Positions 1,999-55,523 of a stretch of 64,000 nucleotides of DNA are shown piece after piece (the first letter of the stretch is position 1; each line of letters begins with the position of its first letter). Under the pieces are notes generated by a model. The model was not told the origin of the DNA. It did not search any database and saw only the letters and a program-made list of their open reading frames with translations. The stretch is from Diaporthe sp. PMI_573. Lineage: Eukaryota > Ascomycota > Sordariomycetes > Diaporthales > Diaporthaceae. Where the stretch lies: contig JAJTUP010000063.1 of NCBI GenBank assembly GCA_021399435.1, forward strand, positions 62,001-126,000. Reading direction: 5' to 3'. The position numbers and the translations under genes were made by a program.

Positions 1999-3585
1999 TC
2001 ATTTCCTAGAAACGACCTTGACACCACTACTACTGATCTGGAATGTCATCCTCTTCGGACCTGAGCTCCCAACAATCTTTTTTGACAGCGAATACTGCTC
2101 CCGTCGGGAACATTTGGCATCCACAGGCGGCTCAACCAGGGTAGACGCATAACGGTATGGTGGTCTCATGGTGCCATTCGGCACATGGACCTCACCATAG
2201 CCCTGGGACAATTCACGTTGCGTATCCCGGCCATCCTCCCCCTGATGTGAAAGCTGACCGTTGTCGACGGTGTCGGTGGGCGCTGAGGAGAGTACGACAT
2301 GGCCGTTTGTCCCACCAAAGCCAAATGAGCTTATTCCAGCGTGAATGGTGGGACGACCGCTTCCGGTCCCCTGATACTGGCTCAGTCGGATAGGTGCCTG
2401 TGGCAACACAAAGTTGAAGGATCCCGGAAGGATCTCAGGGTTGAGTGTCTGGTAGTTGACGTTCTTGGGTAACAATCCCCCATGGTTGAAGACGAGAATC
2501 ACCTTGATGAGACTGGCGATCCCTGCTGCTGCCTCTAGGTGGCCGATCTGGCCCTTGAGCGCCCCCAGCGCCAGGGGCAACGGCCGTTGGCCTTCCTCGT
2601 TGGTGCCAAAGACGTTGCGCAGCGCGTTGAACTCGATTGGATCTCCCAGTTTCGTGCCCGTTCCATGTGTTTCAATATACGATACGTCGGCAGGCCCGAG
2701 TTGAGCATCCTCTAGGGCTTGCCTGATGACAGCCTCCTGTGACGGCCCGTTGGGCGCCGTCAGGCTGGCGCTTCGACCGTCCTGGTTGACAGCTGTGCCC
2801 CCGAGGATGGCAAGAGGCGACCCGAGGCTTCGGCGTGCCGCCTCGGCGGCGCTGAGCAACACGAGGGCCCCGCAGCCTTCGCCCCGTCCGTACCCGTCTG
2901 CCCTGGCGTCGAATGGCTTCGAGCGGTTGTCGCTGGGCGAAACCATCTGGGACCGAGAGACCTGTTCAAAGGTGGCCGGGTCCAGGTGCACCTGTACGCC
3001 GCACACGACGGCGATGTCGCATTCACCGCCCTGTAGTGATTGCTTGGCAAGGTGCAGGGCAACCAGACTGCTCGAGCAGGCCGTGTCGACAACCATGCTC
3101 GGGCCAACCAGCCCGAACACATAGCTGACGCGATTGGCCAGCAGGCTGGTGGCCGACCCGGCGCCCGTGAGCGCGTTCTTGAAGCCTAGGGCGTTTGTCC
3201 ACCCGCTGGGGCCCGTGCCGACAAAGACGCCGGTGCGGCTCCCCTGGAGCTCATCGCGCGTGTAGCCGGCGCGGTGCAGGGCCTGGAAGCAGGTACGCAG
3301 CACTAGGCGCTGGGCCGGGTCGGTGGCTTCAGCCTCCCGACGAGACATACCGAAAAAGTCGTGGTCGAAGGAGAAGATCTGGTCGTAGCCAAGCATTGAT
3401 GCTTCCTTGATTGTGATGGCCTTGGAGCCCTGGCTGGCGTTGTAGCCCTCGATGTCGAGACGGTCGGTACTTATGGGATGGCACATGTCCTGACCACTCA
3501 TCATCTTGTCCCAGAAGGCCTCGACGCCGTCTGCGCCTGGGAAGACGCAGTCCATGGCGGCTACAACGACCTTTTGTATCGGATC
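1999..3585 (-). other. C-terminal KS6 and tail of the first PKS (first half of split module 6)
   Basis: KS6 spans residues about 10438-10874 with DTACSSS (Cys10607), ETHGTGT (His10744) and IGHLEA (His10786), so it should be a live condensing enzyme. It is followed only by a 95-residue tail and the stop codon at 2001-1999. No AT or ACP follows. The tail starts with an acidic, Gln-rich piece and ends basic. The segment PPYRYASTLVEP loosely recalls the leader that precedes DH domains in the other modules. The partner processing domains are at the N-terminus of the 37743-55523 protein. Confidence 0.85.
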
Positions 3586-6500
3586 ACGGCGATCAATCCT
3601 TGAAATTGTAAGGGGTTTTGCATTGGCGTCCACCGCATCTGGTTCTCTGGTACGCTGAGCCTGTTCTCGAAGGAACCGACCGAGGAGCACCCGGTTTGGG
3701 TAATCAAAGGCCAGTGATGTTGGCAGGCTGATGTGAAGCTTGTCTTCGAGAACGTGTCGGAAGGACACCGAGGTCAACGAGTCCAAGCCAGCATCCATGA
3801 ACGGTGTCGAGTCGCCTGCGAGTGGGGTCCCAGTGACTTCCTCAAAGGTGCTGTGGATGACCTCCCGGATGTGATCAGATTGCTCATCTGTCTGAGCGGG
3901 ACGGGCCCTGGGTTTCGGGTCGTCTGTTCGGTTGCGAGCCGCTTGACTTGGAGCTGGCAGCTCGTGCGAAGTAGTGGCAGACGTGCGAACACCTTGCCGA
4001 CTTAACCAGAGGGCTGCACGATTGCCACCTAATAAATCAATGGCACCCGATGGTGCGTCCCGTGCAATATGAACGATGAGGCGCTGAAATTCATCTATCC
4101 GCATTAGGCCCTCCTGGCTCGAGTTCTTCAGGTGGCCCGCCGCAAAGCCCACCGAGGCAACAGCATCGATGTGGACAGAGATATACCTAGTCTGCTGCCG
4201 GGGATCCCGCGGAGGATTCTGCGCATACTGGAGGATGGTCTGATCCATTGCAGCATTGGCAGCTGCGTATTCGGCCTGTTGCCTAAGTCCGACGGTTGCG
4301 GAAGTGGAAGAAAAGCCGACGACTACCTGAAGATCATTGTTGCCGTGCAAGGCGGACAAGATTGATAGCAACCCGTTGACCTTGACAGCATGGTGGCCAT
4401 CAAATACCGCCTCTGAGAAGCCCTTGCTGGGCACGTACCCAGAAGACAATTCGCCAGCCGCATGCAAGACGCCGACGATGGCTCCAAACCTGGACTCAAC
4501 GTGGCCAAGCGCTCGCACAACTTCCTGCCTATTCGTTACGTCTGCCAGGTGGATGGAGGCCCGGCGGCCGTTTTCCAGCTGAAGAAGCCGTCTGAGGCGG
4601 TCATCTGAGTTGGTCGTGGCTTGTCCCGTGCGTGAAAGAAGCGCCACATGCCCGACCCCGGCATCAAGAAGAGCCTCCGCAGCGGCAAGTCCCAGTCCAC
4701 CTGTGCCTCCTGTGATCACAAAGGTCCCACGGATCCAGGACGGGGATAGCGGTGTCGAGCGAGCGGGAGGAAGGGCCGAGATTGGCTTCTGGACCGGAAG
4801 GCGAAGAGACTTGTCAGCATCGACGTGAATTGCGACTCCCAGATCGATTGGCAAGCGGCTCAGAAGAGGAACGATGTTTCTCTCAAAGTCATGGTCCTCA
4901 TGTGATAAAAGACCGATATTGGCTTCCGGGTGTTCCAGACGGAATGTTTGAACAATGGCGAGAGCAGGAGCACACAGAGCGGACTCGCTGCTGCAACTGA
5001 CCCACAGGTGGGCGCCTCTCCCGCGATCAGCCCAGCCCTGGGCAACTTGAGCGAGCGACGAGAGACTGTGTGGCACAAAATAGGCAATTTGGTCTGACTC
5101 TGGACTGGCGTACCGGACCTGATCTGCGGTATCAATACGCCGACAAGCACGCAGAGGAAGCGGTTGCTCATCGTGGTGGCCTTCCAACTCTGACAGTGTT
5201 ATCACGGGTGCAAGTCTTGCCGCACCCAAAGAGACGTCCGAGGTAACGGTGACCAGCTCGAGGCCAGTCACACGCAAGAAGCTCTTGCTCTCCTGGGCGT
5301 GAGCGATGATGTCGACTGTGACTTCCCCGCTCCCGCTATGGGCCAAGGTGAGGCTGACCTCGAATATTGACGAGCCGGGTGCAGATTCCCATGACTTAAA
5401 AGCAAAGGCCTGCATTGCTGGTGGCACACACCCCAACTCAACCAGCACACCGATGGCAATGTCGACTAGCTCCGCGTGGCTGGGGCTGATAAACAGTTGC
5501 TCCTTGGGCCGGATATAGGTGAAGTGGATGTGCTGCTTTTGAGGATCGTGGGACACCAGAGAGACACCAGGCGGAAGACGGTTACTTGTATGTGGAGAAA
5601 ATAAATCGCCGCGATCTACAGACCATGCGGCGCCTGCAGGTGGCTTTGTCGACGATGGGGCAGCCAGGCTGGCGGAGCCCAGGACAGTCGACGAGGAGCC
5701 GAATGGCGCGATCAAGCCAATCACCCCGGGGGCAACCTCTTTAGCGCGAACTTTGTCGATTGCCTTTGCTGTGAAGTCGTGGGTTGATCGGAGGAAGCCG
5801 TTGCACAACGAGATGCATCTGCTGTTGGTGTTGACATTGTTATCGGTACTCCTTTGCATGGACAAGATGGCCATGAGATCCACTGCAGCGAGCAAGGGGC
5901 TACCACTGTTGCCAAATTTCTCTGCAAGATCGATGCCAGCCTGGAAAGATGCCGATGCAGACGTTCCCTGCCCGTGAAGTTCGACTCCCGCTGCCTCAGG
6001 GACCGCGGTCAACGGGAACCACGAGCGAGATAGCACGGGAGCCGATAGGGACCTGTCGTTGCGGGACGAGGCTACAGAGCCAGGACGCAGGATGACGTGG
6101 CAATTGACGCCCGAAAAGCCAAACGACGACACGCCAGCAACGACGCCGTCAACACCACCTTGAGATGGCAGTGACTCCCAGCGCTTCGGCAAGACGACAC
6201 GAGATCCGCGGTTCAGCTGCAAATGTCTGTTGTTCTCAGTGACGTGGGATAGAGGAGGCACTCTGCCATGCTTGAGCACCAGCACCGTCTTCAGGATGCC
6301 GGCGAGGCCAGCGGCACTCTCGAGGTGGCCCACGTTTGCCTTGACGGCACCAACGTATAACGCTTGCCATTGTGTTGAAGACACGTTGACCATACTAGCA
6401 TCAAACACATCCTGCAAGGCATTGAACTCGAGGGGATCTCCCAGTTTGGTTCCTGTGCCATGAGCCTCGACGTACGAGACCCGGCCAGGCTCAACCTGGG

Positions 6501-9500
6501 CATCAGAAAGTGCCGCGCGGATGACGGCCGCCTGAGCCGAGGGGCTCGGTGAGGTTAGGTTGGCGGCCGTGCGGCCGCTGTGGTTGGTCGCTATGCCGCT
6601 CACGACCGCGTGTATCTGTGAAGAGGCCTGCATCATTTCGGCCGCGTCCAGGCGTTGTAGAACTACCGCCACGACGCCCTCGCCGCGTACAAAGCCGTCG
6701 GCCTGGTCGTCGAATGGGACACATGCGCCTTGACGCGAGAGCATGCCAGCAGCTGACTCGGACACGTACGTGCGAGGCGAGGATATGCAGTTGGCGCTGG
6801 CAACCAGCGCGTAGTCAATCTTGCCCGAGCGGAGAGCCTCGACGCCGGATTCCATGGCCACAAGGCTGCTGGAACAGGCCGTGTCAATAGTGACGGACGG
6901 GCCCTGCAGGCCAAACACATGTGACAACCGGCTTGACAGAAGTGAGGGAGCTGCAGATGATGCGGACTTGGGCTGCTGCTGCTGGCCTTGGGATTCAACT
7001 GCTCCGAAAGCTGCATCGAAATTCATGGCACCCACGTAAACACCAATGTTGGCGCCGCGGATGGCACTGCGATCCAGCCCGGCATCTGCGAAAGCTCGGA
7101 GGCATACCTGGAGGAGCAGACGTTGTTGTGGATCCATTGATGCGGCCTCGAATGCTGGCAGCCCAAAGGTTTCGTGGTCGAAAAGATCGGCATCGCGCAT
7201 GAAAGAACCCGCATCCGTGTAGGATTTTCCTCGCTGGCGCCCGGTAGGATCAAGCCATGCACTCATGTTGAAACGGTCGCGAGGAACTCGACCAAAGGCG
7301 GTGGCAGGGTGCTTGGACAAAAGCTCCCAGAACTCATCCGGCGACTCTGCACATGGGAGCTGGCAGGCAAGGCCAACAATTGCCACCTCACGAGACGTAG
7401 GCATGACTGTGCACCTAGAGTCAGTGGGACAATCGCACCACATCGCGAGTGTTGGGACTTACCAGTATTGAAAGTACTTGTTGGTTTTAATCCAGGCCGT
7501 GGATCCGCTCCCGCCGCAGTGCCAGTGGGTTCTCGTGCCTCTACCTTTCTATTTTCTTGCTGCTCCGTGACAGCATCAGCTGCAGCTGCCGCTAGTAACG
7601 GTGTCATATCCCTGACCTGTCGATCGAGGTATTCTAGAAGCGCCGGCTTGGTTGGATATTCGAACAAGAGCGTGGCCGAGAGCCGCAGGCCGCGCAGGGC
7701 ACCCTGTAAATAATTGCGAAAGTCGATTGCACCAAGCGAGTCCACGCCAGCTTCGGCAAATGTCTCGTCGCCCTCGATGCTCCGGCCAAGTACATGGTCT
7801 ATGGCCTCCTGCACAATCTGGCCAACGTCAACACCAGGGTCTTGAGAGACGCTGGGCTTGCCTGGGGCGTCGGTTGGGCGAGACTCCTTCTCGGCTGGTC
7901 GAGAAATTGCAAGGTTTCGAGGGGGGACGGGGGCAGGAGAACGTTTCGAAACAGCCTCTTGGTCCGGCCTACTGGCAGCAGTGTCACCCCTCACCATGTA
8001 CTGACTGGGCTTAAAAGGAGCGAATCTCGGAGAGGCGAACTTGTTGCCACTCCGCCAGAGGTTCTGCCAGATAAATGGCACAAAGGTCACCACGGGCCTC
8101 TGCCAGGAGACTGTGAAGAGCTTCCGGATCAGCAAAACGGCCGTGTCTTTGGGTATCGCCTCGTGCACTGTGGACCGGCGCTTGTCCTCGTCCGCCGCTC
8201 CCCGTCTGGCCGCATCGCCAATCTGGGACACCGCCCCCCATTGTACAGACAAGGTTGCGTGGGCTGCCCACCCCGATTCTGCGGCACGGTCGAGAAGCTC
8301 ATTCGCGACGGTGTGATTGCTCTGGCCTGGGGCGCCCAGGAGACCGGCGACGGAGCTGTAGCTTAGGAAGAAGTCGAGAGACGAGATCGGGAGGCGTTTT
8401 TGGATGATGTGGGCAGCATAGGCTTTGGTCTTGAGGACGAGGTGGTAGGACTCTGGAGTCTGGGCCGGGAAAGTTCCGTCGCTCAGAATCCCTGCACCGT
8501 GGACGACGCCGCGGATTCGAGGCAGCTCGGACTGACTGTCAAGAGAGCGAAACAGGTCTTGCACTTGCCACTCGTCACTGACATCGCAGGCACGTGGGAC
8601 GAGTTGAACGTTCCGCGCCCGGCACAGAGAGAGGAGGTCTTGCCAGTCGCCATCGGAGCCTGGAGCAGGCTTCCCGCTGCGCGAGACTAGCACCAGGTGT
8701 CTGGCTCCTAGCTCTACCATGACTTTTGCCGTGAGAATGCCGAGGCCACCTAGCCCGCCAGTGATAAGATAGGTTGCGTCAGATTGAACGGTAAGGCGCC
8801 TCCGAATGTTGAATGGCTTTGCAAATGGTCTTGTCATATCTGTAGCATGGGGGCCAGCCTCGGTCTTAATTGCAGTGAGTATAGCTTGGTTGGCAAAGAT
8901 GCCGTCAAGAGGTGAATGCCCAGTGGGCACGAGGCCAGGGACACTGCGGAATAGCTCGAACCAAGCGCGTGGATGCAAAAGAGGTCCGTCCAGACGATAC
9001 CGGTCAGAGTGGGCATTCCAGCCCGTCGTGAGGCCGAAAGTGCAGTCCGCAAAAGGTTGGACCTTTGTGAGTTCCGAGACGATCAACCGCCCTCCTGGCA
9101 ACATCAGGTCTCGGATGTGGGCCATGACTAGAGGCAGGTTTGACGTGGCGTGAAGGACATTTGTTGCGAGGATGAAATCAAAAGACTCGGCAGCGAACCC
9201 CTGTGGCTCGCAAGGACTCTCGACGTTCAGGACGCGATAATCCACAAAGTCATAGCGTGCGAATGTTTTACTCGCTCTAGCCAGGAAGCTACTAGATAGG
9301 TCGGTAAAGACGTAGCGCACACGCACCCCGAGAGTTGCCAGGGCTGGAAGCACATAACTGGCAGTGCCACCCGTGCCAGCACCAATCTCAAGAATGTGGA
9401 TGGTGTAGTCAGGTGGCAATGACTTCTCAGACGATTGAATGATGTCACGGATAGCGTCGGCTATCAAGGAGTTGAAGTGCTTCGCAAGGAATGTGCTCTT

Positions 9501-12500
9501 GTACAGTGCGGAGGCAGCTTGAGCATTCTGGTCGGAGAAGAGCAAGGTAAGAGGGTCCACGCGGCCAGTCAGAACACCGGAAAGCTCAGGGGCGGTTGAC
9601 ATCAGAAGGTTGACCTGGGGCCCCAGCAGGTCGGCGTCTAACTGCCGGACCTTACCAACGAGTTGAGGTTTCCCCACAGCAGGGCGGTTTGTGGTCGACC
9701 GGTAGCGGTGCCATAGACGGAGGAGATGGGGCGTTACTTGGTGCTCTTCAACTGCCCAAGCGGCCTCTGCCATCAATTGGGTGCAAAGGCTTTGCAATTC
9801 GGCATCAGCTCGAATAAACCTGTCGGCGGTGGGTGCGTTCTCCTCCAAGAAGGTATTTGTCTTGACAGCCAACACATGTGACATCCTTTGTTCCGGATGG
9901 AGGTCTTGGTCTGGAACAAGGGCAGATCGTCCCGCTTCGAACCCAGAAGAGCTCTCCGGACTGATTGGAGCAAGCACGGTGAGAGGAGTTGATCTGGTGT
10001 CCCCGCAGAGGCCAATCTCGGCGACTGAGTTGAGATTGCTGCCTATGCTACCTGCCTCGGACAGCACTAGACTCTCTAGCTCATCGATTACCAGCAGGAA
10101 ATCTGTTTGGGACACTTGGATGTCTAGAGCCATGATCTTGACCGGAATGTGGTACTGTTCCACCTTGAAGGCCCTCGCCATCCCGGCCAGCGCTGCTCCG
10201 CGAGGTCGGCTTGTATGACGCTGAAGGCCGATTAAGCCTGAAGTAATGTGTACGATGAAATCAGGTATTTGAGCATGGTCTGCTTGGCAAATTTCAGCAT
10301 AGAACTTGAGTGTCTTCTTTGCAAGACCCTCCTCAAAGTCAGGATCGAGCCCGTCTTGGACGGCGGGCGCAAAATGCTCTTGAGTATCAATGCCGGCACG
10401 GCAGTCGATACAAATTGTCGTCAGGCCGTCGGAATTTGCCTTGTGATTGGCAATGGTAGCCGTCACAGCCGCCATGTCGCCTACCTGGACCACCTGGGAA
10501 TGGCGGCTCAGAGCGCTCATAAGATGCTGGGTAAAGGAATCGAGCCGTTCTGCAACAACCAGGTAGAGCAGTCGGCTCTTGCGCCTCTGTTGGAGCTGTG
10601 GATCTCGGATGGTATTCGACACGACTTCGGTCCTGTAGGATTGCTGGTACACCATATGCGTCTTCCTGCTCGGATGGGACTGCAGAGTGGGCTGTGCAGG
10701 CCGGCTCTGGAGGCCCTTGAAAGTCATGAGGAGCTCGTCTTGCTCTGAGTAGACCGCGAGGTCAAGTTTAAGCAACGCATCGTCCATCGAGTCGTCCGCA
10801 CGGGCGACGAGGACACTAATACGTGCTGGAAGCCGTCTCAGGAACTCTATGCGCTCCACAGTAAAGGGCATCCGCGCGGGAGTTGTTGCAAGAGAGTCAA
10901 GGAAGAGGCCAGCAGAAGTCTGCAGGATGCCATCAAGGAGACACGGATGGGCGAACATGCCATGTCCCACCAACGACGAGTAAAGGGACGCTTGTGCATA
11001 TCTCCGAGAGCCTGATATGCCAGTCAAGGTCCTGAAATGTGGTCCGTACAAGAGGCCTTTGCGTTCAAAATGCTGATATACCGCCTCGGGCTCATGTACA
11101 TTGCCGCAGTCCCTCATTACGTCGAGGCGAGGTGGAATGGACAAGTCGCATGACGATGATGAGGGAATGGCTGCGCCGACGAGGACACGGTAAAAACCCT
11201 CAACCCTGAGCGTGAGCGACTCAGGATCGCTGTCAGCACGACCCAGGGAAATATTGAATTTCTTGTCATCAACGTGGATTATGCAGAAAAGGGCTATTCC
11301 ATCTTGTCTGCCGGGGCGTTGATGATCGAGCTCGGACTGCGCAATGAAGACTGGGGAGACGAAGGTGACTTCCTCGAGGACAATCCGATTATCTTCACCG
11401 TGCACTGCACGAGCGGCTGCAGCAGCCAGTTCGATATGCAGAGCACCTGGAACAACGACCTTGCCGTGGACCATGTGTTGTTTCAAAACGGATGCCAGCG
11501 AGTGTTGTATTGGCACGGCAAATATGGTTGTCCCATCAGGTCCCTCACGACGATCTTTGAGCAGCGGATGCTGCATCCTGCGGTAGGGAAAGCGCTGCAG
11601 ACACGCCGAAACCTGTGGCTGGGATGGCTGGGAGGCAAGGACGTCCACAGCCTCGCCAGCCGGCGTTATGGGTGGTGGCATAACTCCAGCCTGTCGTATC
11701 TTGGCAATACCGTCCTTCCAAACTCCCTCCGCTTCTCGGGGAGGCTCCTGACAGGCCACAAACGTCATGCTGGGACCCGGGATGCACTGTTTTGCCAGCT
11801 TTGCAAGGACAGCCCTTGGTCCTAGCTCGACAAAGCAGGACCCTCCCAGGCGCTGAGCCTCCCCGATCGCATCCAAGAAAAGAACAGGATCTGTGATGTG
11901 TTTGATCCAATGGGATGGGCTCTCCACCAACTGGTCGGCTAATTTACCAGTAACACAGCTCACCAACTGTGTGCCGCCTGGCCGAGGGCGTTGGATCTGG
12001 ACTCCGGCAAGGGCCTGTTGGAAGCCAGGCACAGCCGGCCGCATCAATGGCGAATGGAAAGCGTGAGAAACCTGGAGCGGCCGGCTAGCAACGTTGGTCA
12101 TTGTGCGGCACAAGACCTCGACCTCTTCCTTGAGACCGGATATGACAGTCATCCGCGGCCCGTTGATGGCAGCAACAGAGCAGCGGTGAAGACCCAGTTG
12201 GCGCAGAGCGGCAGAGACCTTCTCGGCTGGTGCGCTCATAGCCACCATGGCGCCCTCGTTCCGAGGGAGAGAGCCCAGCAGTCGACCACGGGTTGCAACC
12301 AGGCGGATTGCGTCGCGAAGACTCAGATATCCTGCAACATGCGCCGCTACGAATTCTCCAAGAGAGTGGCCGAGGACCAAGCCAGGCCTGTAGCCTTCAT
12401 CATCTTGGAACACGCGCCAGAGTGCGTACTCGACTGCAAATAAACAGACTTGACTGTAAGTCGTATCATCAATAAGTTGCGTCGCGGTTGCCTGCTCGTC

Positions 12501-36571: not shown

Positions 36572-36599
36572 GAGACGAAGCTACTTACTGCTTGCAAAG

Positions 36600-36700: not shown

Positions 36701-37742
36701 TTATTATAGTAGTCTTTTATTAAGTTTTAAATAGAGTTATAAGGTATAATAATTTACATGTAATAATTTCTAGTAATTATGTCTATATAGAAAAATGTTG
36801 ACTAGATGGTTGTATTAAGTATCTTTGTATCTTTGGTAGCATGGCCTCATTTGGGAACTCCTTCATGCATTGTCTGACGATGCGTGACCATCAGGCCACA
36901 AGCCACACACATGGACGAGGACTTGTTACCAATTCAATGGAGTCGTTTTTGTGGGTTTAGAGCTCGCATTCGCGTGTGACGTAGCGCTAGTCAGAGCTCT
37001 TACCCAAGGTCTGATTGTATATATACAAACCTTGATGAAGAGATTGTTTCAGCCTCTCAATGCGGAAGGAGCCGAAGTCTTAGATCCGCAGCCTGGGCAT
37101 AGCTTGTTTCCACGTAGCCGTTAGAAGTGCAACGTGGGCTTGTTCATTGGCAACTTAACAGCTTAGAAACAGCCGAGAGCCCATATTAGTCCCACTCCAG
37201 ACATCCACCAGTACCACATATTTCTGGGGCAATACAATAACACACACAGTACGAGTTTTGAGTCATGGATATCGCCATCTTCCATGGGTCCAATTGAGTC
37301 ATGCCTGTCTTCCCGAGGTTGCCTTCGTTTTCGCGTCACCTTTGGATATCCGTACGTGTCTGGTGTTCGGCGGTGACTTGAATCGTAAGAACTCCGTACA
37401 CAAGGTAGTCCGTGAGCGGATACAAGCAGTGTCCATTTCGAGAGGACTTTGTGACTTCGATGTGGCGTGGCGGGCCGGTAGCCGAAGATCGCATAGACTG
37501 CACGTATGTTTGACAGCTAATTACCTTTGCGGTTAGTGGATAGAGTAGACTTACGCCCAGTGTGATCGGCAAGTGTTGAGTATCTGGTGGCATATGGCAA
37601 TCAAGTTCAACTGCTCCAATACGCATTTCCAATACCTAGTAATCGCGGCCATTACACAGACTCGCATACCAATTGCACACAATACCTGAAAACCACACCA
37701 CCTTCCTACCTGCCTTCCCATTCGGTCAAAACGCCGGTAGTG

Positions 37743-40700: not shown

Positions 40701-41800
40701 CAGAAGAGCTTGTGAGAGCACCGGGGAGCCGGCATGTAATTTGGGTCCGCCCACAGTCTGAAGTCAACGGGGGCGACGAGACGCCCCTCCTTGAACTGGC
40801 GCAAAATTTACAGGTTCGTGTGTCCCTCATCAATGTTGACAACATAAAAGAACTACAAGTATTCGAAGTCCTGGATCGTGCTAGTGTTTCCTCGTCCTCC
40901 ATTGATGGCGTCGTATGGGTACCTGATCAAACGACGGCTCCCATGCGCCTTTTTGCCACCTTCCAGCATTTACATGTTGTGCTGGATAATCTGGACAAGT
41001 CGCCAGAGTATTTCGTCATACTGCACGGCGTCGACGTAGAGAGCGAGCTGGGTGGGGAACTTTATCATGACCAGAACCGGTGAGCAACCCATCAAAGTCC
41101 CATTTCCCACGAGAGCAGTGGCTTATACAACCATTCATCGAGAAGGGCCGTTGAATCTCTGGTTTTGTACCGTCGTCATCGCCTCAGTCTTCCAACAGGA
41201 CTCATATTCTGGCCTTTAGATGGTGAAAGGAGCCCGCTGGGAAGGACACTTACCAAGAAAACGTTTACCTCAGCCGTCCGATCTTGCGGTTCCAAAGATC
41301 CCCGCGTAGCAGTTGTCGATTTTGCCAAGGCTTGTAGGAAGGCTCAGCGGGCGAATTCTCGGGGAACACTCTGGCCCGAAGCGCGTGGCGAGAGTGTTCG
41401 GCCAGGTGATCCGCCCCTGACCTCTCTTGAGCCTCGGCCTTCTTCTTCGGCGCCGGTGGCGCGTATTACGCCAAAAAGTGAGAGGGCTCGCCCGAATGCG
41501 GACCAGTATCATGGCCTGGCTTCAAAAGCCAATAGTAACCGCCCTCAGAGCACGCAGAACGCCGATGTGCATGTAGTGATCCAGAGGGTTCTCGAGGAAG
41601 CGCGAGCCTTGACCAGCTCACCAGGGGCTGTTACTACAGAATCCCCCTTGATGATGGCGGGCGTTGACTCACTTGCAGTTGTGGAGCTGCGAGAGGCACT
41701 GCTGAGGACTTTTCCTGGAGTCACACTCGCGAGTACCTACATCTACGAACTCCCAACGTCCAAGGATATCGGCGAGGAGATACACGCCCAGCTACTAGAT
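37743..41800 (+). other. Second half of split PKS module 6: psiDH-MT-psiKR-ACP
   Basis: The protein begins inside a DH fold. Residues from about 10 align with DH helices just after the missing HxxxGxxxxP motif, and the usual second-half Asp motif is replaced (FSPGVLES). The DH is therefore headless and dead. MT6 (about 577-880) is intact: LEVGAGTGST at 702-711 and VLHATQD after the second intron. The following KR (about 890-1100) has GSGTIAS in place of the cofactor glycines and lacks much of its fold; the position of the catalytic Asn is Arg. ACP6 carries Ser1229. Expected outcome: an alpha-methyl beta-keto unit. Confidence 0.8.
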
Positions 41801-44800: not shown

Positions 44801-47800
44801 GCACACGCACGCCGTCATCTTCCAGGCTAACCACCGCATGCTCTCTCTCGTCTCAGACCACGTCGTCCGTGGCAGGCCTATAATGCCCGGCGCTGCCATA
44901 TTTGACATGGCCTTGGGCGCCGTACAGGTGATCGAGGGCCTGCACCCGGTCGAAGCCCTCCCACTCGAGCTTCGCGATACAGAGATCACGAGGGCCGTCG
45001 TCTTTGCGCAGGACCTCGAGCCTCCGTGGCTGCGGATCGTGTACCATGCCGTCGATGGGACCGTGAGGGTTCAGTCGGCTCCAGGAGAACGGGATGAGTT
45101 TATCGACCATGCGAGCGGGACCATTGTGCGCTCTGGGCAGGCTATCCAGGTAGCAGGACGACCGGGAGAGGTAGTCTCGACACCGACGACTCGGCGTCTT
45201 GTCGATCTTGAGGCTGTAGCCAAGCGCTGCACCCGCGAGGCTGACGTGCCCAGCATCCGGGCGCAGCTTGCTTCTCGTGGCCTTCGCTATGGCCCCCAGT
45301 TCCAGGCGCTGACGGCTGCGGTTGGCGGCGAGGGAGAGTGTCTTGGGACTCTCCAGCTGCCCGAGAACGGGTCTTCGGGATACATTGTGCATCCTGGCCT
45401 GTTTGACAGTGCCATGCAGTCATGCTCCGTGACGGTTGGCCAGAGTGAGTCTTGCACGCTTTTTTTTTCCAACTAACTCTTCTGATCTCTGAAACTAACT
45501 TCGTGATGCAGTGACGGGCAAAGACGCATTTGCTGTGGGCGGTATTGGACGTTTACGAGTCTACGCATTCCTGGGCGAACACCGCAAGGGCGCCACCGTC
45601 AAGGTCTGGTCACGCATCATCCGGTCTGACCCGTCGAGCGCTGAGGCTAACCTGGACATCTGCGACAACGACGGGAACATCCTTTTCGCCATAGAGCAGT
45701 TGAGGCTCGTTAAGATCAGCTCCCTTGCTGCTTCCACACCACGCAGTTGTCTCTATGTCACCGAGTGGGCGCTGCTGCAGCCCTCTGCGGAACAAAGCCT
45801 GACAGCCTGCCTCGGCCTGGGTGATTTGCATGACAACAAAACAGGTGAAGAAGAAAAGCTAGATCTACAGATCCAGCTCGATCACGTTGTGGGTGTTATC
45901 TCTGGATCCAAGAGACGACACGCTGGTCGCCGACGTGGGTTGGTCTCAGCTCTGGAGGGCGAGTTGGACCGCTTGCTGGGTCGCCAGCAGGGTCTCAGGT
46001 ATCTGGATCTAGACTTGCTGTCCGGCTCACGGCGGTCTGCTGGCATCCTTGGGGCCCAGAGCCTGCAGACCCTGGTTGTGCCTCTTGATCCGAGCGACAC
46101 AGCCCTGAGTACGGCCTCACGCCTCGCCCGTCTCTTCCAGACGCTTCATGCATCTACCTCGAGCAGAAACAAAGACGAAAACTTGCTCGTGCAGCTCCGG
46201 ACAGTCGTTGTGGTCACCTTTGGGTCCCAAGCCTTGGTGCACGACGACCTTGGCGACGGAGAGGTCCAGGATGCCAGCGGGGTAGAGTCCTCGGCCGCCT
46301 GGGGCCTCCTGAGGACCGCTCGACTCGAGTTCCCACAGCTGCGTCTCGTCACGGTAGATGTTGACCCGGACCATCACCCAGTCAGACAGGCTGCCGCCGT
46401 CCTAGATGCAGTCCACGACGAGTCGGAAGATGAGGTCGTGTGGCGCGGCCACTGCCGATATGTGCCCCGCCTGACTGACCTGGGCGTCGACGTCGAGGCA
46501 GGTGGGGGGCGGGCGGCTGGCTTGGATATATTCCGTCCTTCGGTGGACGTTGACCTGGCTGAAATCCTACCCCGTGACGTCGAGCTCGGACAGGCGGTGC
46601 CCATTCTTATAAGCCGCTCAGAACTCGCACGTATCCGGCGGGGCTACGCCTTGACCAACACACTCTCGCTGGACAGCCTCATCTGCGGTGTCAAGGCCGT
46701 CCCTGAGGATCAAGTTGTGCCCTTGCAGAAGGAGCTCTGGCAACGGTACGCAAATGTCTCGTTTGACCGAGACTCTAGTGACCTCCATGCTCAGCTCCCA
46801 GCCGTGGACTGTAGCGACGAGGGGCTTGCTGCGTGGTTCGACGAGGCACTCAGGTCTCACCCTGAGGTGGCTCCCGAACTGAACATGCTGAGGCCGCTCT
46901 ACCGCCAACACGAGGCTGTGTTTCGTGGGGACAAGGACCCGCTGGAGCTGCTCTTCCGCTCCAATCAGCACGCCGAGACGGCCGGTGTATACTCGGAGTC
47001 CTTCTATGCCCAATACTATAACAGGGTAGTCGTTCACGCCTTCTCTTCCTACGCACGCAACTGGTTGGCTGGAGGATGTGGTGAGAATGACGCATCGCCC
47101 GAACAGTCCCGCCCGATGCGCATCCTCGAGGTCGGGGCCGGGAGCGGCAGTACGTCGCGGAGGCTGCTCGAGGCGGCGGCCGAGTTGGGCCTTGCCGTTG
47201 ATTACTACTTCACTGATATATCCGAGACCTTCTTACGAAAAGCATCTGGAGATAAGACGATAACTGCGACTACGGGGGCCAAGGTGACTTTCACGCTCTT
47301 TAACGCAGAGATTGATCCTCGGTCACAGGGGCTTGCAAGCTCGACGTTTGATGTCGTTGTCGGCGTCAACGTGATCCACGCCACCCAGAAATTGTGCGAG
47401 ACCATGAGACACGTTCGACAGCTTGTGAGACCACGCGGTATCGTGATCCTTTCCGAGATCGTGCAGCCTTCGTCCATCAGTGACGCGACATTTGGCATGA
47501 CTGAGGGATGGTGGAGGTTCCAAGACAGGGACCTCCGTCCCGACTATCCGCTCATGGACGCAGCCCGCTGGGAGCGGCTGCTTCATGCTACAGACTTTGA
47601 CAGGGTGCGCATATTGGAGAATGCTGAGGCTGGCACCGCTCAGGCCGTTGTGGTGGGACAGGCAGCAATGTGCTCGTGGCCGGTAACCCGACTCCCCACC
47701 ACTCTGTCGTCTGTCGGCCAGGCTGGCGACACCGAAGAGCAAGGTGTCTATATCATCACAGGTGGTACTGGTGGCCTGGGTCTACTGACGGCTGCCGTTC

Positions 47801-50800
47801 TCCTTGAGCAAAAGCACTGCGACAAGGTTTACTTGCTCTCCAGGTCCGGCAGTGTGCTCCCCAACTCAGCCCACGTATGGGAGCGTCTCGAGGGCCTGGC
47901 AGGGCAGGGACAGGTTGTCAAGCTTGCCTGCGATGTCAGCAGTGCTTCCCAGGTCGCAGATGTGTTTGACTCGATCCGCCAAAGGGGGGAGTATATCAGA
48001 GGAATAGTCCACTCCTCGGGTGTCCTCCGCGATGCCATGCTCCAGAACCAGACTCGAGCCACCATGACGCCAGTTTTCGGTGCCAAGGTCGAGGCCCTAC
48101 GATGGCTACACGACCTCAGCCTCGACGAGCCGCGCCTGCGCCATTTCGTCATCTTCTCTTCTGCCTCGGCACTGCTTGGGTCGCCTGGACAGGCCAACCA
48201 CTCGTCCGCCAATACGTTCCTCGATGCTTTCGCCGCCCACCGCCGCGCCCAAGGGCTGCCAGCCCTGTGCCTGCAATGGGGGACAGTGATGGGTCTGGGA
48301 GAGGCTGCAAGGAAGGGGGCTAACAAGCTTGCTATCAAGTTTGGACACGGCCAACTGTCTGAGACTGCGGCCGAAGCTGTTCTGAAGACTGTTTTTGCCT
48401 CAGACGGCCACCTTTACCCCGTCCATTCTTTGGCCGTCTCTCCATTTGACTGGAACACCTTCACCAAGTCGAGGACAAAGGTTCCGCACATCACTCGCTC
48501 TTTTACATCCAAAATATCTCCCAAGACCACCGCACAGTCGCCAAAAACCTTGACGGCCAGCTCCAAGCAAAGCACAATATCCAGCACGTCTGGGCCAGTG
48601 CGACGAGAGGCATCATCCAGCATCACAGAGATGATACAGAGTTGTGTGGAGGCAACCATCAGCCACAAGATGCCGGACGAATCGACCACCTTCTATGATG
48701 CAGGTGTTGACTCTCTCTCAGCCATTGAACTTCGCAATCGTCTGCAGTCCAAACTGGGCAACAAGGCAAAGTTGAGTGCTTCTTTGGTCTTTGACTACCC
48801 TACTCTCGAGAAACTGCGGGAGTACTTGGAAAGCATAACCACTGGAGCGGAAGATGACGAGCCTGGACGCGTCAATGATGTCGACACGAATCCAATCCTA
48901 CAAGACGATCTTCAGACGCCGGCTCTTCGGCAGAACCACAGCCCCGGACAAGCATCCACCTCCCTGAAGTCACTCCAGTCAGCGCCAGAGCCTCAGATTC
49001 ATGTTCAGGCGAGACCTGCCATCACAGTAATTAAAGGTGCAACAGGGACCACACAGAATACTGTCGACAAGACAGTGTCGATTGTCGGGATGGACTGCAG
49101 GCTTCCCACTGCTGGTAATGTGGATGAGCTATGGGAGTCGCTCCTTGCGGGCAAGGATGGCTTCCGGGATATACCTTTTTCACGATGGGATCTGGATGAC
49201 AACTTTTATACTCCCAAATCTGAAAACAAAATCAGCCGCTCATATGTCAAGCAGGGCGCATGTAAGTTTCAATCGGCGTCTCGTGCCAGGATGCGTGAGT
49301 GGACATTGAGATTACCGTTCAAAACTAACTGCCGACACAGTCCTCACGCCGGAGCACTTGGAATGGTTCGACAACCGCTTCTTCAACATCTCGGATGCCG
49401 AAGCGCGTACCATGGACCCTAACCAGCGCCTCCTTTTGGAGGTTTGCTACCAGGCCCTGGCGGATGCAGGCTATACTCGGAAGAGCCTGAGAGGTCAGAA
49501 GATCGGCGTGTTCGTCGGGTATGTGTTATACACAATTCAATGTTCTTTCCTTCCCCCGTCTATATCCACTATTCCGATGAAACCCCGTCCAATTCTAGAC
49601 CCATACTGATCAGCTCCGCACAAGCTTTATGAACTACGACCAGTTTTTCCTCACAGACAAAAGCTCACCAGGCGCCTTCACGGCCTCGTCGGCCTCGCCT
49701 GCGGCCCTCTCCAACCGAGTCAGCCACGTCCTGGGGCTCGAGGGCCCGTCCTGCACCATCGATACCGCCTGCAGCGCCTCCCTGTACGCCCTCAACATGG
49801 CCGTCGGGGCCCTCCGCTCGAACCAGTGCGACGCGGCTGTGGTGGCCGGCGTCAACGTGATGATGAGCCCCGCTGCCTTTGTTGCCGAGTGCGCAGCCGG
49901 GATGCTGAGCCCCTCGGAGCGGTGTCACGCCCTTGACGCCAGTGCTGACGGCTTTGCCCGCGGCGAGGGCTGCGCCGCCGTCGTGCTGCAGCGGCTCGCA
50001 CGCCCTGAGCCCCAGTCGGTGAAGCTTCCCCGGGCGCCCCGCGTGTACGCAAACATCCTCGGGACAGCCGTCGGCCACGACGGAACCGCGGCGAACCTGA
50101 CGTCTCCAAACGGGCCTGCGCAAGCCCGGATCATCCGGCGTGCTCTGGACGACGCCGGTGTCGGCCCCGAGACCATCACGTTTGTCGAGGGACACTTTAC
50201 AGGTACTGTCCTCGGCGACCCAATCGAGTTTCACGCGCTCAAGGGGGTCTTTGGCGGCAAGGAGGCGCGAAATGCTCAAGCTCGCTCGCTGCCCCTTCAG
50301 CTCGGCGCTCTCAAGAGTAACCTGGGTCATCTGGAGGGGGTGGCGGGCGTGGCTGGCCTGATCAAGGCCGTGCTCGCCCTGGGACATCGACAACTCCCGC
50401 CAGTCGCGCACCTCAAGGAACTCAACCCGCACCTTGTCCTCGAGGACTTTGGCGTCAGTGTGCCTCGGGGCCCCGGTGCGGTCTCGCTGGCTCCTACCTC
50501 CCCAGCTTGCTCGCACTTGCGGGCCGGTGTTTCGTCGTTTGGCTTTTCTGGGGCCAACGCGCATGTTGTGCTCGAAGGTGCCGGCCGTCCGACTCACGCT
50601 CACGATCAAAAGTCGCTGGCTGGACAGGCTCACTCCTTTTCCCGCCGTCACTTTCCCCTTCGGCGACCTGGCTCCTGCCATGCGATGCTGGGCAATGTTC
50701 AGGCCCGGTTGCCTGAAGCGGGCACACTCCATGTTCCAATCGGCTTCCGACTCTTTTCTCTAATCCAGCAGCACGTGGTAAAGGGTGTTCCTACCCTGCC

Positions 50801-53800
50801 TGGCGCTATGCTTGTTGAGCTGGCTACTGCTGTGGCCATGTACACTGGCAACAGAGCCGCCGGGAAGCCATGTTCTGCCCAGCTCGACAACATTTTCTTT
50901 ATTGCCCCATTCACGGTGGAGACGCCTCGTACTGTGACAATGACAATCACTCGTGACTCTACTGGAGAGTTCACGATTGAGAAAGAGAGCCAGTCTGACG
51001 AGGACGATGAAATGACAAGTATTGTCATGGCGAGCGGCAAGATTGGCACGTCCGAATCTGCTAACAATTCTGAAGAGGCACCGGATCGTCTCACGAGCAT
51101 GGCGAGCTTCCAGGATGCCTGTACGGAGCTGTTCGACGTGAAGGCAATGTGGAAGTCCCTTGAGGCCGCAGGCATCCACCACTCGGGCCATTTCCGTAGC
51201 CTTCAGCGAGCCTATGTCTCGTGCAAAGAGCCCAATCATCCAAAGGCATTTGGGCATATCAGTATAGCGGAGAATGGTGAGGATGGCTTCGTCGTGCACC
51301 CTGCCATCCTTGACTCTGCAATGCAACTAGTTGCAGCACTGGTGCTGGCTCATAGGGAGGGTCAGCCCACTGACAGCAGTCCACGCCAGACTTTCCTCCC
51401 CTTCTCGATGAAGGGCGTCAGGGTGAACTGCCCTGGACCGCGCGAGTCCCCGGGGCGCGACTTCTCTGCTCTGGCCGAGCTCTTCTCCGTCAAGAACACA
51501 GAGATCAAGGCCAAATTGTCTGTCTTGGATGAGTCTGGCAAGGTCATGTTCGACATTGACGAGGTCACCTTCCGCCCCTTGTCGTCTTCATCCTCAGCCG
51601 GCCCCGGCCCAGGAGATGAATCACGGCTGCTGGCCCCTCCTTTACATAACCTCGTCTGGCAACAATCACAGCATGGTCCAAAACATGTCGAGGATAAATT
51701 GCAGCAGTGTTTTTTGCTGTTACACGATGAAGATCAGGATCTTGCCAATGTGTTCACCGACGGTGCGAGCAACCCAGTCAGGGTGACATACTCGACAAAG
51801 GACATCGAGCAATCCGCACCGAATTCGACCTACTGCATCCTGCCAGCCTCTGTGAAGGCTGTAGAGCTGTCCTGCTGGGTCTTGGACTTGGTCAAGATCC
51901 TGACGGACCAGACCTCTCGCTCGGGTAACACGTCGTCTTTGTGGATCGTCACTCGCTCATGCCAGACCGCACCGTACGCTTATCCCGAACACGCTGCAAT
52001 CTGGGGCCTAGTAAGATGTCTGCGTCTTGAGGACACGTCGGGCTTGTCCATCGGTCTATGTGACTTGGTGTACGGCAGTGACGAGGCGACACCACCGCCA
52101 GCGGGGGCTTTCGCATCCTCCCTCGTCGGACGTCTACCAGTCCCGACACGCTCATCCAACGAGTGGGCATGGATCTCGTCTTCCTCTTCGTGGCTCGAGC
52201 CCCGTCTCGTCCCGGACCACACCACAAGCCTCGAACTCCCCACCGCGGCTATCGCAAAGCGCGGCCTCAATTCCCTCGAAGCCGCTCCTCTGCCCGACTT
52301 TGACAGCACTTTGGCCCAGCGCCTCGACGACAATAGCGTGCTCGTCTGTGTGCAGGCGGCAGGGATAAACTTCCACGATGTCGTATTTGCCACTTATGGG
52401 GCCACCAGCGAGGCCATGGACGACGGCAGTGCGCTAGGCGTCGACTTCTCTGGCGTGGTTCAGGCCGTTGGATCCAAAGTAGACCATGTCAAGCCCGGGG
52501 ACAGCGTCTTTGGGATGGCCGACGGCTCTATACGTAGCGTGCTTGTGTGCCATGGCAGTCTCCTGCGCAAACTGGAGCCGGGATGGGGACTGTCGGTCCA
52601 AGAGGCAGCTTCCCTCCCTACCATCTTTGCTACGGCACATTTCATTCTCCGTCACATTGCAGACGTACGCGCAGGCCAGACCGTGCTCATCCACACGGCC
52701 ACCGGGGGACTTGGGCACATCCTAGTCCGCATGGCCCAGGATCTGGGAGCCCGCGTGGTTGCAACTGCTGGTTCAGAGGAGAAACAGAGATATTTGGCTG
52801 ACGAGCTGGGTGTAGACCCGGGCCTGATCGCCACTTCCAGAGACGCTGCGAGCTTCTCGGAGCGCCTGAGTCACCTTGTATCCCAGGTCGATGTTGCTGT
52901 CAATACCTTGAGCGGTGACTACATCCATGAGACACTATCCTTGCTGAAACCCGACGGCAGGTTCTTTGAAACGGGCAAGCTCGCCATCTGGACTCCGGAG
53001 GAGGTTAAGTCTTCGCGGCCAGATGTCGAATACCATGTGGTCCACTTGACACAACCAGAACTTTTGAGTCAGTTCCTAGGGGATTTGAAAGATGCTCTCT
53101 CCCAGGGGGCCGTCTGCGCCCCGAGGATCGAGTCCTTCCAATACCCTGCTCAGCTCAAGGAGGCATTCGAGCACCTTCGAAATGCCCAGCATATTGGCAA
53201 GGTCGTGTTGACGATGCCCCATGCTCCGGGGAAAAGAATTTTGTGCCCACTCCAGTCATCTGTTGATGATTCCGTCAGGAGGGATGACGAAAATAGGGTG
53301 CGCGACGATGCTACGTATATCGTTACTGGCGGGAACAGCGGATTGGGTCTCGTGGCCGCTCGTGTCCTTGTTGATGCGGGCGCTCTCCACATTGTCTTAC
53401 TGTCCAGATCAGGTGTCGTGAGAGATCTCGACGCTCATGTACATGCCGAGATTGAGAAGGTTGCTGCTCAGACTGGTTGCAACTTGCAACACTGGGCTTG
53501 CGATGTCGGTGACAAGGCAGAACTAGGTAGGCTCCGTCCCCATCCCCAAACACCCCTCGTAACACTCCTGCCCCACCCCCCGGGGCCGCCGCCTCGTATG
53601 TCTTCATCGTTGCATGAAGATACACAAGCACTTTCTTTGGCTATTTACTGAACGAGATACCCAACAGAACGCATCATTCTCCACGTCCAACGTGACGGCA
53701 TGCCTCCCATTCGCGGTGTGATTCACGCAGCTGGAGTTCTCCATGACGCACCATTCCGGCAACAGACCAATTCCTTCATGGAAGTCGTCATGAGACCAAA

Positions 53801-55523
53801 GATACAAGGCGCCCAGAACATCATGGACCTGTTAAAGTCGAGCCTCGACTTCCTCATTCTATTTTCCTCGCCCGCTGGCTTGATTGGCACCGTAGATCAG
53901 GCCAACTACGGCGCTGCCAATGCAGTCCTCGACGCAATAGCCGGCGGCTGGCGCACAAATGGTCTGCCAGTAGTGAGTGTGGCATGGGGTCTGGTTGTCG
54001 GACTCGGAATCCTCACGCAGAGACCACCCACCCGAGCACTGGTCGAAAGACTGGGGCTGGTTTCACCAGACCTTGTCTACCGGGCCCTCGGTGCTGCGAT
54101 CGTGGAGGCAACAACTACCGCCGGCTGTGCCTACAAGATGGTTGCTCCGGTTCAGTGGGAGAAGCTGCTGCGGCCAGGAGGTGACCAGCGTGCCCTCTTT
54201 GCTGAGTATCAAAGACTTCTCGCCCTGCAGCGGCAGCAACAGCCTCGTCGCGCTGGGGCTGGCAAGTCTCGTCGTCCTAGAAATTCGACACGGCGGACTG
54301 GAACAACATCGTCTGCCAACGCTGCGCAGTCAACCTTTCCAGAGAGCCTCGCCTCGATAGAGACAACTATGCGTCAAGTATTATCTGACGTCGTCGCCGT
54401 CGACATACCCGAAGGCTCTAGAGACACGCGGCTGGATGACCTCGGCATGGATTCTCTCAGCTCGATGGAGCTGGGCAACCGCCTCAACGCCGCGTTCTCT
54501 GGCCTGAATCTATCTCCCATGGCCGTTCACTCCTTCCCGACTCTTGGTTCTCTGGCGCAGCACATTTATACAAAGCTGAGCATGACTGCAGCTGCTGCAG
54601 GCCCCGGGCTTGCCGAGCTTCCAGCACTCGCAGCTGCGGACGGCGCGACAGAGCGGAGCCTGGTCGAGCTGAATCAAGTTCCAGACGACAACAACCCAGA
54701 GACACCCGTCGGGATCATCATTCACGGCGCCTCGGGCGAGGTACACCATGCGCGAACTTTGGCCGCGAAACTTCCATTCAAAGTCTACGGCATCCGCCAG
54801 ACTTCTGACACACCTTCGCACAGCGTCGCCGCCATGGCAGCCTCCTACATCAACCTCCTTGTCAACGGGCCGCCTGGCATCCTCAGACGCCGCGTTCAGT
54901 TGATGGGTTATTCGTTTGGCGGCTGCGTCGCGTGGGAAATGGCACGCATGCTTGATATGGATGGGCCCTTCCGGCCCGAGCGCCTGTTCCTTCTCGATGG
55001 AGGCCCCTGCTCGGATGTCTCCATGGCGGCGGTCCTCGGCGCGGACATCTCCATGGCGGCCGGCCAGGATGACGATGAGGCTATTGGGCCCCACAGCATG
55101 ACTCTCATGGGGACCCTGCTCTTTGCCAGCGGCGCTGAGGTCGTCGACAAGGCTGAGATTGTCTCCACGCTTGAGGGCCTCGGCCTCACCGGATCGTCGG
55201 TTTCGGGACTGGCAGACGTGGAGAGCATCCGGCGCGCCAGGGAGGACATTGTGCAGAGGATTCCTGAGCAGCTGCGGGGTGATCCTCTCCGTCGCATGAC
55301 AGACGGCTTTGTCGCTAACTGTGCTTCGTATGACAGGTACTTGCTGTCCCACCGGGCGGGCAAGGTGCCCGTTTACGATGGGCCGGTCTGGATCTCGAGG
55401 TCGAGGTTGCCACGTGGGGAGGAGGAGCGAACAAAGGCACAGCTTTGGCTGGATTCTGATCACTACGGGTTCATGGACAGAGATGAGTTGTCTGATGCTA
55501 TTATTGATTTGGTTGGTGTGTAA
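37743..55523 (+). CDS. Multimodular type I polyketide synthase (second half of module 6, modules 7-8, TE)
   Basis: Nine exons: 37743-39471, 39540-40147, 40256-41079, 41146-43820, 43912-45444, 45512-49261, 49341-49518, 49625-53526, 53668-55523. They sum to 17,055 nt (5,684 residues and stop). The third junction was chosen so that the degenerate KR aligns residue for residue with KR2. The ATG at 37743 is preferred over one at 37587, because the added 52 residues look non-coding. Order: headless psiDH, MT, psiKR, ACP (Ser1229); KS7 (Cys1504), AT (Ser1919), DH, MT, KR, ACP (Ser3524); KS8 (Cys3815), DH, ER, KR, ACP (Ser5329), TE (Ser5482). With no KS ahead of its first MT and ACP, it must receive the chain from KS6 of the divergent synthase. 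It completes the chain and releases it. Confidence 0.9.
41990..48840 (+). other. PKS module 7: KS-AT-DH-MT-KR-ACP
   Basis: KS7 (1336-1774; Cys1504, His1639, His1695). AT7 (from 1825) has FTGQGSQ, GHSIGE (Ser1919) and KPFHSPLM (His2024), fitting malonyl. DH7 has HVVRGRPIMP (His2262) and LFDSAMQ (Asp2444). MT7 (2826-3176) has EVGAGSGST. KR7 (3202-3441) has GGTGGLG and QANHSSAN with His for Tyr. ACP7 carries Ser3524. The layout equals module 4. Expected outcome: an alpha-methyl, alpha,beta-unsaturated unit. Confidence 0.85.
49072..54575 (+). other. PKS module 8: KS-DH-ER-KR-ACP, no AT
   Basis: KS8 is broken by two introns. It has DTACSAS (Cys3815) and LGHLEG (His4001), but the usual HGTGT block reads EGHFTGT, keeping His3956. 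DH8 begins about 60 residues after the KS with no AT between: HVVKGVPTLP (His4149) and LDSAMQ (Asp4329). ER8 (4652-4982) has the TATGGLG loop. KR8 spans an intron, with GGNSGLG and QANYGAAN (Tyr5147 kept). ACP8 has DLGMDSLSS (Ser5329). No MT. Expected outcome: a fully reduced, unmethylated last extension. Confidence 0.83.
54696..55523 (+). other. C-terminal thioesterase, animal-FAS-like
   Basis: Residues about 5410-5684 form an alpha/beta hydrolase with nucleophile elbow MGYSFGGCVAWEM (Ser5482), LFLLDGGP (Asp5510) and DSDHYGF (His5665). The blocks KVYGIRQT, GYSFGGCVAWEM and LFLLDGGP resemble the type I thioesterase of animal fatty acid synthase more than the release domains usual in fungal PKSs. 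It should hydrolyse or cyclise the finished chain from ACP8. Confidence 0.8.

Follow-up and report, generated by a model that had tools for sequence, protein, structure and literature searches.

The 64,000-nucleotide stretch of Diaporthe sp. PMI_573 DNA analysed here (the window; it lies on contig C178, and the genome comprises 217 contigs with a total of 83.7 Mb) carries two giant, divergently transcribed polyketide synthase (PKS) genes, gene A and gene B, which together form a candidate assembly-line PKS. Gene A runs on the minus strand from 35751 to 1999 and was modelled with 11 exons encoding 10,961 amino acids, and gene B runs on the plus strand from 37743 to 55523 with 9 exons encoding 5,670 amino acids. 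Each spliced model ends in one terminal stop codon and contains no internal stop, which agrees with an earlier note on this DNA that both genes close in frame. The two giant proteins of that note were also recovered, but not its exact lengths of 10,965 and 5,684 residues, which are off by 4 and 14 residues, respectively. Its description of the splice sites as fungal was confirmed, as all 18 introns (ten in A, eight in B) measure 56-200 bp and follow the GT...AG rule. Eleven of the 18 were chosen on splice-site score alone, and the remaining seven (34616-34555 in A; 39472-39539, 40148-40255, 41080-41187, 43821-43911, 49519-49624 and 53527-53667 in B) were settled or tie-broken by the reading frame and the expected domain sequence, with 41080-41187 being the least certain. 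The GC content is 47% in the bin 36001-38000, compared with 55-60% in the remaining bins of the PKS genes.

Domains were called by iterated profile searches on the gene models, Pfam searches on the exons and motif alignments. They are given below in the order of the encoded proteins, with KS standing for ketosynthase, AT for acyltransferase, DH for dehydratase, ER for enoylreductase, MT for methyltransferase, KR for ketoreductase, ACP for acyl carrier protein and TE for thioesterase.

35752..37742, no strand: divergent intergenic region between both start codons, from the gene models
1999..35751, minus strand: gene A, ACP0-KS1-DH(degenerate)-KR-ACP / KS2-AT-DH-ER-MT-KR-ACPx4 / KS3-DH-ER-MT-KR-ACPx2 / KS4-AT-DH-MT-KR-ACP / KS5-KR-ACP / KS6
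35521..35670, minus strand: ACP0, N-terminal carrier domain and candidate loading site
34013..35397, minus strand: KS1, interrupted by an intron
32902..33757, minus strand: DH1, degenerate (Leu for the catalytic His and Asp)
31018..31587, minus strand: KR1 with the active-site Tyr
28861..30351, minus strand: KS2
27617..28737, minus strand: AT2, with GHSFGE and HAYHS
23129..27331, minus strand: DH2, ER2, MT2 and KR2, in that order, KR2 with His at the Tyr position
21395..22693, minus strand: four tandem ACPs of module 2, DSL in each
19868..21223, minus strand: KS3, with no AT following
15361..19669, minus strand: DH3, ER3, MT3 and KR3 (His)
14397..14927, minus strand: two tandem ACPs of module 3
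12867..14129, minus strand: KS4
11781..12734, minus strand: AT4, with GHSLGE and HAFHS
8214..11504, minus strand: DH4, MT4 and KR4 (His)
7626..7772, minus strand: ACP4
6100..7401, minus strand: KS5, with no AT following
3670..4731, minus strand: KR5 (Tyr) and ACP5
2302..3582, minus strand: KS6, last catalytic domain of A, with its predicted ACP partner near the start of B
37743..55523, plus strand: gene B, X-MT-ACP / KS7-AT-DH-MT-KR-ACP / KS8-DH-ER-KR-ACP-TE
37743..39730, plus strand: X, residues 1-640 at the N terminus of protein B, unassigned and kept in four relatives
39902..41776, plus strand: MT6 and ACP6, predicted to complete the split module
41978..44420, plus strand: KS7 and AT7 (GHSIGE, KPFHS)
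44832..48828, plus strand: DH7, MT7, KR7 (His) and ACP7
49057..50561, plus strand: KS8, with no AT following
50745..54566, plus strand: DH8, ER8, KR8 (Tyr) and ACP8, no MT
54708..55505, plus strand: terminal TE, with GYSFGG and a C-terminal His

The two proteins together hold 8 KS, 3 AT, 6 DH, 3 ER, 5 MT, 7 KR, 13 ACP and 1 TE domains, with six KSs in series in A and two in B. Alignment revealed the Cys, the first His and the second His in all eight KSs, as the earlier note had stated, the first His of KS8 reading HFTGT. The DSL serine is present in 13/13 ACPs, GAG(T/S)G in 5/5 MTs and GHSxGE in 3/3 ATs, and both catalytic residues are kept in five of the six DHs, DH1 having Leu for each of them. 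The reductive set varies between modules, on which the profile, Pfam and motif searches agree, so that the serial KSs with module-specific reductive sets described in the note were found as claimed. Within its own protein, each KS except KS6 has an ACP behind it, and an ACP for KS6 lies near the start of B. The TE, the only release domain, occurs at the C-terminal end of B, behind module 8. The eight condensing modules that the note had counted hold as eight serial KSs and not as complete modules, since five of the eight lack an AT.

Eight database proteins (P0001-P0005 and P0226-P0228) are colinear with A or B, with 43-65% identity in the main alignments. P0005 matches A residues 1028-6747 (54% identity), and P0228, P0226 and P0227 match A 7009-10930 (55%), 7486-10959 (65%) and 7490-10943 (57%), respectively. 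All of P0001-P0004 match B 4957-5668 at 48-49%; P0001 and P0004 further match B 34-4964 and 13-4949, respectively, at 48% each, and for P0002 and P0003 the remainder of B aligns as two stretches, at 43% and 51-52%. P0001-P0004 were counted as a single lineage, being mutually 87-92% identical, and P0226, P0227 and P0228 share 53-57% identity. The layout, the AT distribution, the tandem ACPs and the ends of A and B recur in the domain strings of the relatives: four tandem ACPs are present in module 2 of P0005, a bare C-terminal KS on the last A piece in P0228, and the X-MT-ACP start of B in P0002 and P0003. The exceptions are an MT in module 8 of P0001-P0004, which is absent from the window, KR4, which was undetected in P0227, and P0005, which goes no further than the first of the module 3 ACPs. 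The KS-led modules of the relatives comprise 11 without and 6 with an AT. For each of KS2-KS8, the seven KSs with a sampled relative, the sister is the same-position KS of a relative (Shimodaira-Hasegawa-like approximate likelihood ratio test, SH-aLRT, 100 each), indicating that module identity was inherited by position. The earlier KS trees of the analysis gave the same pairs.

P0002, P0003, P0005 and P0228 are proteins of Lasiodiplodia theobromae or L. hormozganensis. The Lasiodiplodia proteins share the colinear domain order and the AT distribution with the window and differ from it by the extra module 8 MT, by a gene A in pieces (P0005, P0228) and by identities of 43-55% in the main alignments. 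No function for these proteins came up in the literature searched. P0003, P0005 and P0228 are consistent with one L. theobromae contig that holds gene B entire and gene A in fragments. The search for homologous loci that the earlier note had proposed as a check accordingly found colinear relatives in public genomes, Lasiodiplodia among them, and a system confined to this genome was not borne out. The Lasiodiplodia proteins carry the automatic bacterial names 'PikA1', 'PpsC' and 'PpsA', and these names together with the fragmented gene A may have hidden this PKS family. Three relatives extend further beyond KS6 than protein A, whose C-terminal tail is encoded at window 1999-2300, two of the longer tails ending near VRTL-FGG; a missing exon downstream of the short C-terminal tail of gene A was looked for and none was seen.

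The colinear relatives, found in several assemblies, also refute an assembly artefact, and A and B keep more than 16,600 open codons with intact motifs. An artefact or a decayed locus would be in keeping with several other KS matches of this genome, which carry in-frame stops, but we regard this explanation as next to negligible for the two genes.

Taken together, the serial KSs, the varied reductive sets, the lone terminal TE, the recurring two-protein split and the positional orthology of the KSs fit an assembly line and support the corresponding reading in the earlier note. A and B likely act as one two-protein assembly line in which each KS is predicted to extend the chain once and then pass it to the next module. 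The system is real, conserved and probably working in a filamentous fungus; its mechanism is of a known kind, and its host and its economy of ATs are unexpected. Alternatively, the serial modules might form a mixed line, with some modules used repeatedly or with the AT-less KSs only passing the chain on, in which case the product would not match the module count. The five modules without AT, the four and two tandem ACPs in modules 2 and 3 and the single KS shown by each iterative PKS of the same genome, in the stretches fetched, are compatible with such use. Non-extending KS domains, however, often lack both His residues, which are kept in all eight KSs here, and an ACP is available to every KS, including KS6 through the one near the start of B. 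We consider a mixed line unlikely.

For the assembly line, the domain order predicts the following chemistry. The starter would be placed on ACP0, and the three ATs, or a stand-alone AT, would load the ACPs of the five modules that lack an AT as well. In module 1, KR1 alone would leave a hydroxyl, modules 2 and 3 would each methylate and fully reduce, and module 4 would methylate and leave an alkene. Module 5 would leave a hydroxyl, and module 6, composed of KS6 of A and the MT-ACP of B across the protein-protein junction, would methylate and leave a ketone. Module 7 would again methylate and leave an alkene, and module 8 would fully reduce without methylation, after which the TE would free an acid or close a lactone, perhaps via the module 1 hydroxyl. 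With a single use of malonyl per module, the product would be a nine-unit chain (starter plus eight units) with five C-methyl branches, the states of the beta-carbons being, in order, OH, CH2, CH2, alkene, OH, ketone, alkene and CH2. An acetate starter would give a C18 backbone hydroxylated at C9 and C17 and methylated at C4, C6, C10, C12 and C14, with C7 as a ketone and alkenes at C4 and C10. Fungal polyketide chemistry is usually read as one module reused under a hidden programme, and fungal modules that can be read in order would make such a product prediction testable in fungi.

Several points weigh against the assembly line. An AT is present in only three of the eight modules (AT2, AT4 and AT7), and the genome-wide AT search returned window AT pieces at the same three places only. 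No stand-alone AT was found by this search on C178:22001-156000, the 134 kb around the locus; one lies elsewhere in the genome, on contig C112, and presumably resembles the mitochondrial enzyme. The locus poses the question of how modules lacking an AT are loaded when no AT gene is clustered with them. Because A ends in the bare KS6 and B starts with X-MT-ACP, one module is apparently split over the two proteins, and the pairing of KS6 with this MT-ACP is predicted from the layout alone. Region X gave no family match in Pfam or NCBIfam, although its residues 1-576 are kept in four relatives at 44-45% identity. Its comparison with PDB sequences returned a single chain (E = 0.52), profile comparison (hhalign) with the DH, KR, ER, MT, AT and KS sets gave nothing significant, and 24 pattern matches in viral contigs included no relative; an AlphaFold model from five sequences had a mean predicted local distance difference test score (pLDDT) of 35.5 and was not used. 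His occupies the catalytic Tyr position in four window KRs, whose activity is therefore putative, and A residues 1-1027, the ACP0-KS1 part, are covered by none of the eight relatives found.

Since five of the eight modules lack an AT, the system is not a string of complete modules, and complete cis-AT modules were rejected on the same count. The bacterial cis-AT lines (EpoD, Uabimicrobium PKS) resemble the window in their serial KSs and module-specific reductive sets. By comparison, 1,167 of 1,224 KS-led modules of the sampled non-relative proteins hold an AT, against 3/8 in the window. The order of ER and MT differs as well: ER precedes MT in both window modules holding the two and in 6/6 such modules of the relatives, in contrast to MT before ER in 12/12 modules with both among the other sampled proteins.

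The residue at the KR active site follows the presence of an MT. In the window, Tyr is replaced by His in all four modules with both MT and KR (KR2, KR3, KR4 and KR7) and is kept in the three without MT, and in the relatives the KR has His in 12/12 modules with MT and Tyr in 4/4 without. Among the other 326 database proteins, counted with an MT profile that was built from the window and may miss divergent MTs, a KR beside an MT has His in 19/24 cases and Tyr in 5/24, and a KR without MT has His in 0/1,146, Tyr in 1,132 and other letters or gaps in 14. No probability is claimed for these counts because the proteins are related to one another. In this genome's highly reducing (HR) PKSs, the four with an MT all keep Tyr, as does one without a detected MT.

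Module 8 extends this pattern across lineages. KR8 of the window, whose module has no MT, has Tyr, and its orthologues (53-55% identity), which stand beside an MT, have His; in the linker between ER8 and KR8 (window 53216-53304), a stretch of about 325 residues including the MT is missing relative to the four Lasiodiplodia-group relatives. The loss or gain of the MT and the KR residue differ together between both lineages. The extra MT in Lasiodiplodia offers a comparison, with one more C-methyl group predicted there. Inactivity of the His KRs is unlikely, because it would leave ketones in the chain and give the DH and ER that act next no substrate; these KRs are probably active.

A FastTree phylogeny of 273 KSs, thinned from 1,261, placed all eight window KSs in one group of 40 (support 0.971). 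The fungal relatives belong to the same group, as do Cystoisospora suis P0155, Durusdinium trenchii P0057, P0018, P0300 and P0064, and it excludes all sampled KSs of the other PKSs of this genome. The group links the window to the modular type I PKSs of apicomplexans and dinoflagellates: in P0155, P0057, P0018, P0300 and P0064, 13 of 15 KS-led modules lack an AT by the window-built AT profile, which may miss divergent ATs. Unlike the window, the two named protist proteins in the sample showed no module with both ER and MT. P0018, P0300 and P0064 are multi-KS proteins, most of their modules being shown without an AT, and their KSs group with those of the window.

In quick IQ-TREE runs, from which P0116_KS4 and P0116_KS5 were left out as near copies, the grouping of window and protist KSs received an SH-aLRT of 85.7% with a first fungal set of mostly non-reducing (NR) PKSs (98.7% without long rows), and of 99.6% with a corrected fungal set of 13 of the 23 assembled own-genome KSs plus L001 (99.2% without long rows). 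Long-row removal took out WINA_KS1, P0057_KS1 and the P0064 rows, and in the first set also two own-genome rows, P0226 and P0121; P0226, P0227 and P0121 are not in the corrected-set trees and tests. L003, labelled HR from its KS and part of its AT only, fell among the NR rows. With the first set, a clade of the seventeen assembly-line KSs by themselves was not rejected (p = 0.53). The KS sample contains only two named protist proteins, some rows were removed once the first trees were known, and the number of tests was more than one or two.

These results bear on the possibility that A and B arose by tandem copying or fusion of the usual fungal iterative HR-PKS modules. The domain types are the same as those of fungal HR-PKSs, of which LovB (7cpx) was matched in the search and which likewise have an in-line MT. 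In approximately unbiased (AU) tests, a clade joining the window KSs with the fungal KSs was not rejected with the mostly-NR set (p = 0.146; 0.0229 without long rows), and one with this genome's HR and NR KSs was barely rejected with the corrected set (p = 0.0485). Without long rows, however, the latter clade was rejected with p = 0.007, and the window KSs fall in a different group. Fungal iterative HR-PKSs have one KS per protein, in a single KS-AT-DH-MT-ER-KR-ACP module, in contrast to the six KSs of A and the two of B. The order of ER before MT, the KR letters, which are unlike those of the four HR-PKSs of this genome that keep Tyr beside an MT (4/4 tested), and the five modules without AT also count against this origin. 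Duplication of HR-PKS modules was rejected on the KS clade test, the ER-MT order, the KR letters and the AT-less modules, and we judge it very unlikely. The p values for the window with HR alone and with NR alone (5.65e-05, 0.000131 and 0.0004) were discarded and not used as evidence, because these groupings also split the fungal HR and NR clade.

The KS phylogeny proposed in the earlier note places the window KSs outside the fungal iterative clade (99.6%), the rejection of a fungal clade being narrow with all rows (p = 0.0485). The distance of the window KSs from the fungal iterative PKSs is supported by these trees.

Uptake from a bacterial trans-AT system with later gain of introns is a claim about origin and would be compatible with an assembly line. 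Trans-AT systems typically have modules that lack an AT, ACPs in tandem and modules shared by two proteins, and all three traits are seen here. A clade of the window KSs with the sampled trans-AT KSs, which come from two proteins, was not rejected with all rows (p = 0.092; first set, p = 0.0933). Without long rows, by contrast, the trans-AT clade gave p = 0.013 (first set, p = 0.0315), and the grouping with trans-AT KSs is unsupported. AT2, AT4 and AT7 are present in cis and no AT gene is clustered nearby, unlike in trans-AT lines. A scan with the last exon over one genome each of 84,980 prokaryote species, which reaches near relatives only, returned 27 pattern matches and no relative. We regard such an uptake as improbable.

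The host is fungal, judging from the genes for a fungal transcription factor, FSH1 and PEX3 that lie on the same contig and from the relatives in Lasiodiplodia. Filamentous fungi may have a branch of their own in one eukaryotic lineage of assembly-line PKSs to which those of apicomplexans and dinoflagellates also belong, a branch with two proteins meeting within a module and three ATs for eight modules, evolving by MT gain or loss with a matched His/Tyr switch in the KR; we put this broader proposal forward tentatively, with somewhat less than even confidence. The available text of PMC10394414 names nematodes, dinoflagellates and apicomplexans, and also amoebae and choanoflagellates, as eukaryotic sources, fungi not being among those named there. 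It describes the Cryptosporidium parvum PKS as a single polypeptide with seven elongation modules, in contrast to the two proteins of the window. In the available part of PMC9582728, fungal cis-AT KSs are filed as iterative. A full-text literature search, whose coverage leaves out most subscription journals, found no fungal assembly-line PKS among the titles and opening lines of abstracts that it listed. The earlier note's view of an undescribed system stands insofar as no characterised fungal homologue was found in the literature searched, and falls short insofar as relatives already sit in public genomes under automatic names. With modules readable in order, the two genes would offer a naturally occurring example of the assembly of 11,000-residue synthases in eukaryotes.

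The genes around A and B, in window coordinates unless C178 is given, are as follows.

55814..56782, minus strand: open reading frame (ORF) whose product has an FSH1 serine hydrolase domain, and which may belong to the cluster
58602..59983, plus strand: cytochrome P450 exons, possible cluster member, with a strong match at 59267-59983 and a weak one at 58602-59168
C178:61470-63155 (window 1-1155 in part): GH88-like ORF of 562 residues adjoining gene A, with structure matches to glycoside hydrolase family 88 and a Pfam match below the cut-off
C178:58461-61031: fungal transcription factor flanking the PKS genes
C178:56249-56923: piece of a major facilitator superfamily (MFS) transporter flanking the PKS genes
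C178:126251-127519: PEX3 ORF
about C178:24000-26600: another PKS, in which KS and AT pieces were matched

At no other place in the genome were three or more KS genes seen in a row when at least 136 KS matches, a lower bound with 123 of 180 candidates scored, were read by eye. Some of the other KS matches contain in-frame stops (e.g. C13:1150099 and C136:550920), representing either introns or decayed PKS genes.

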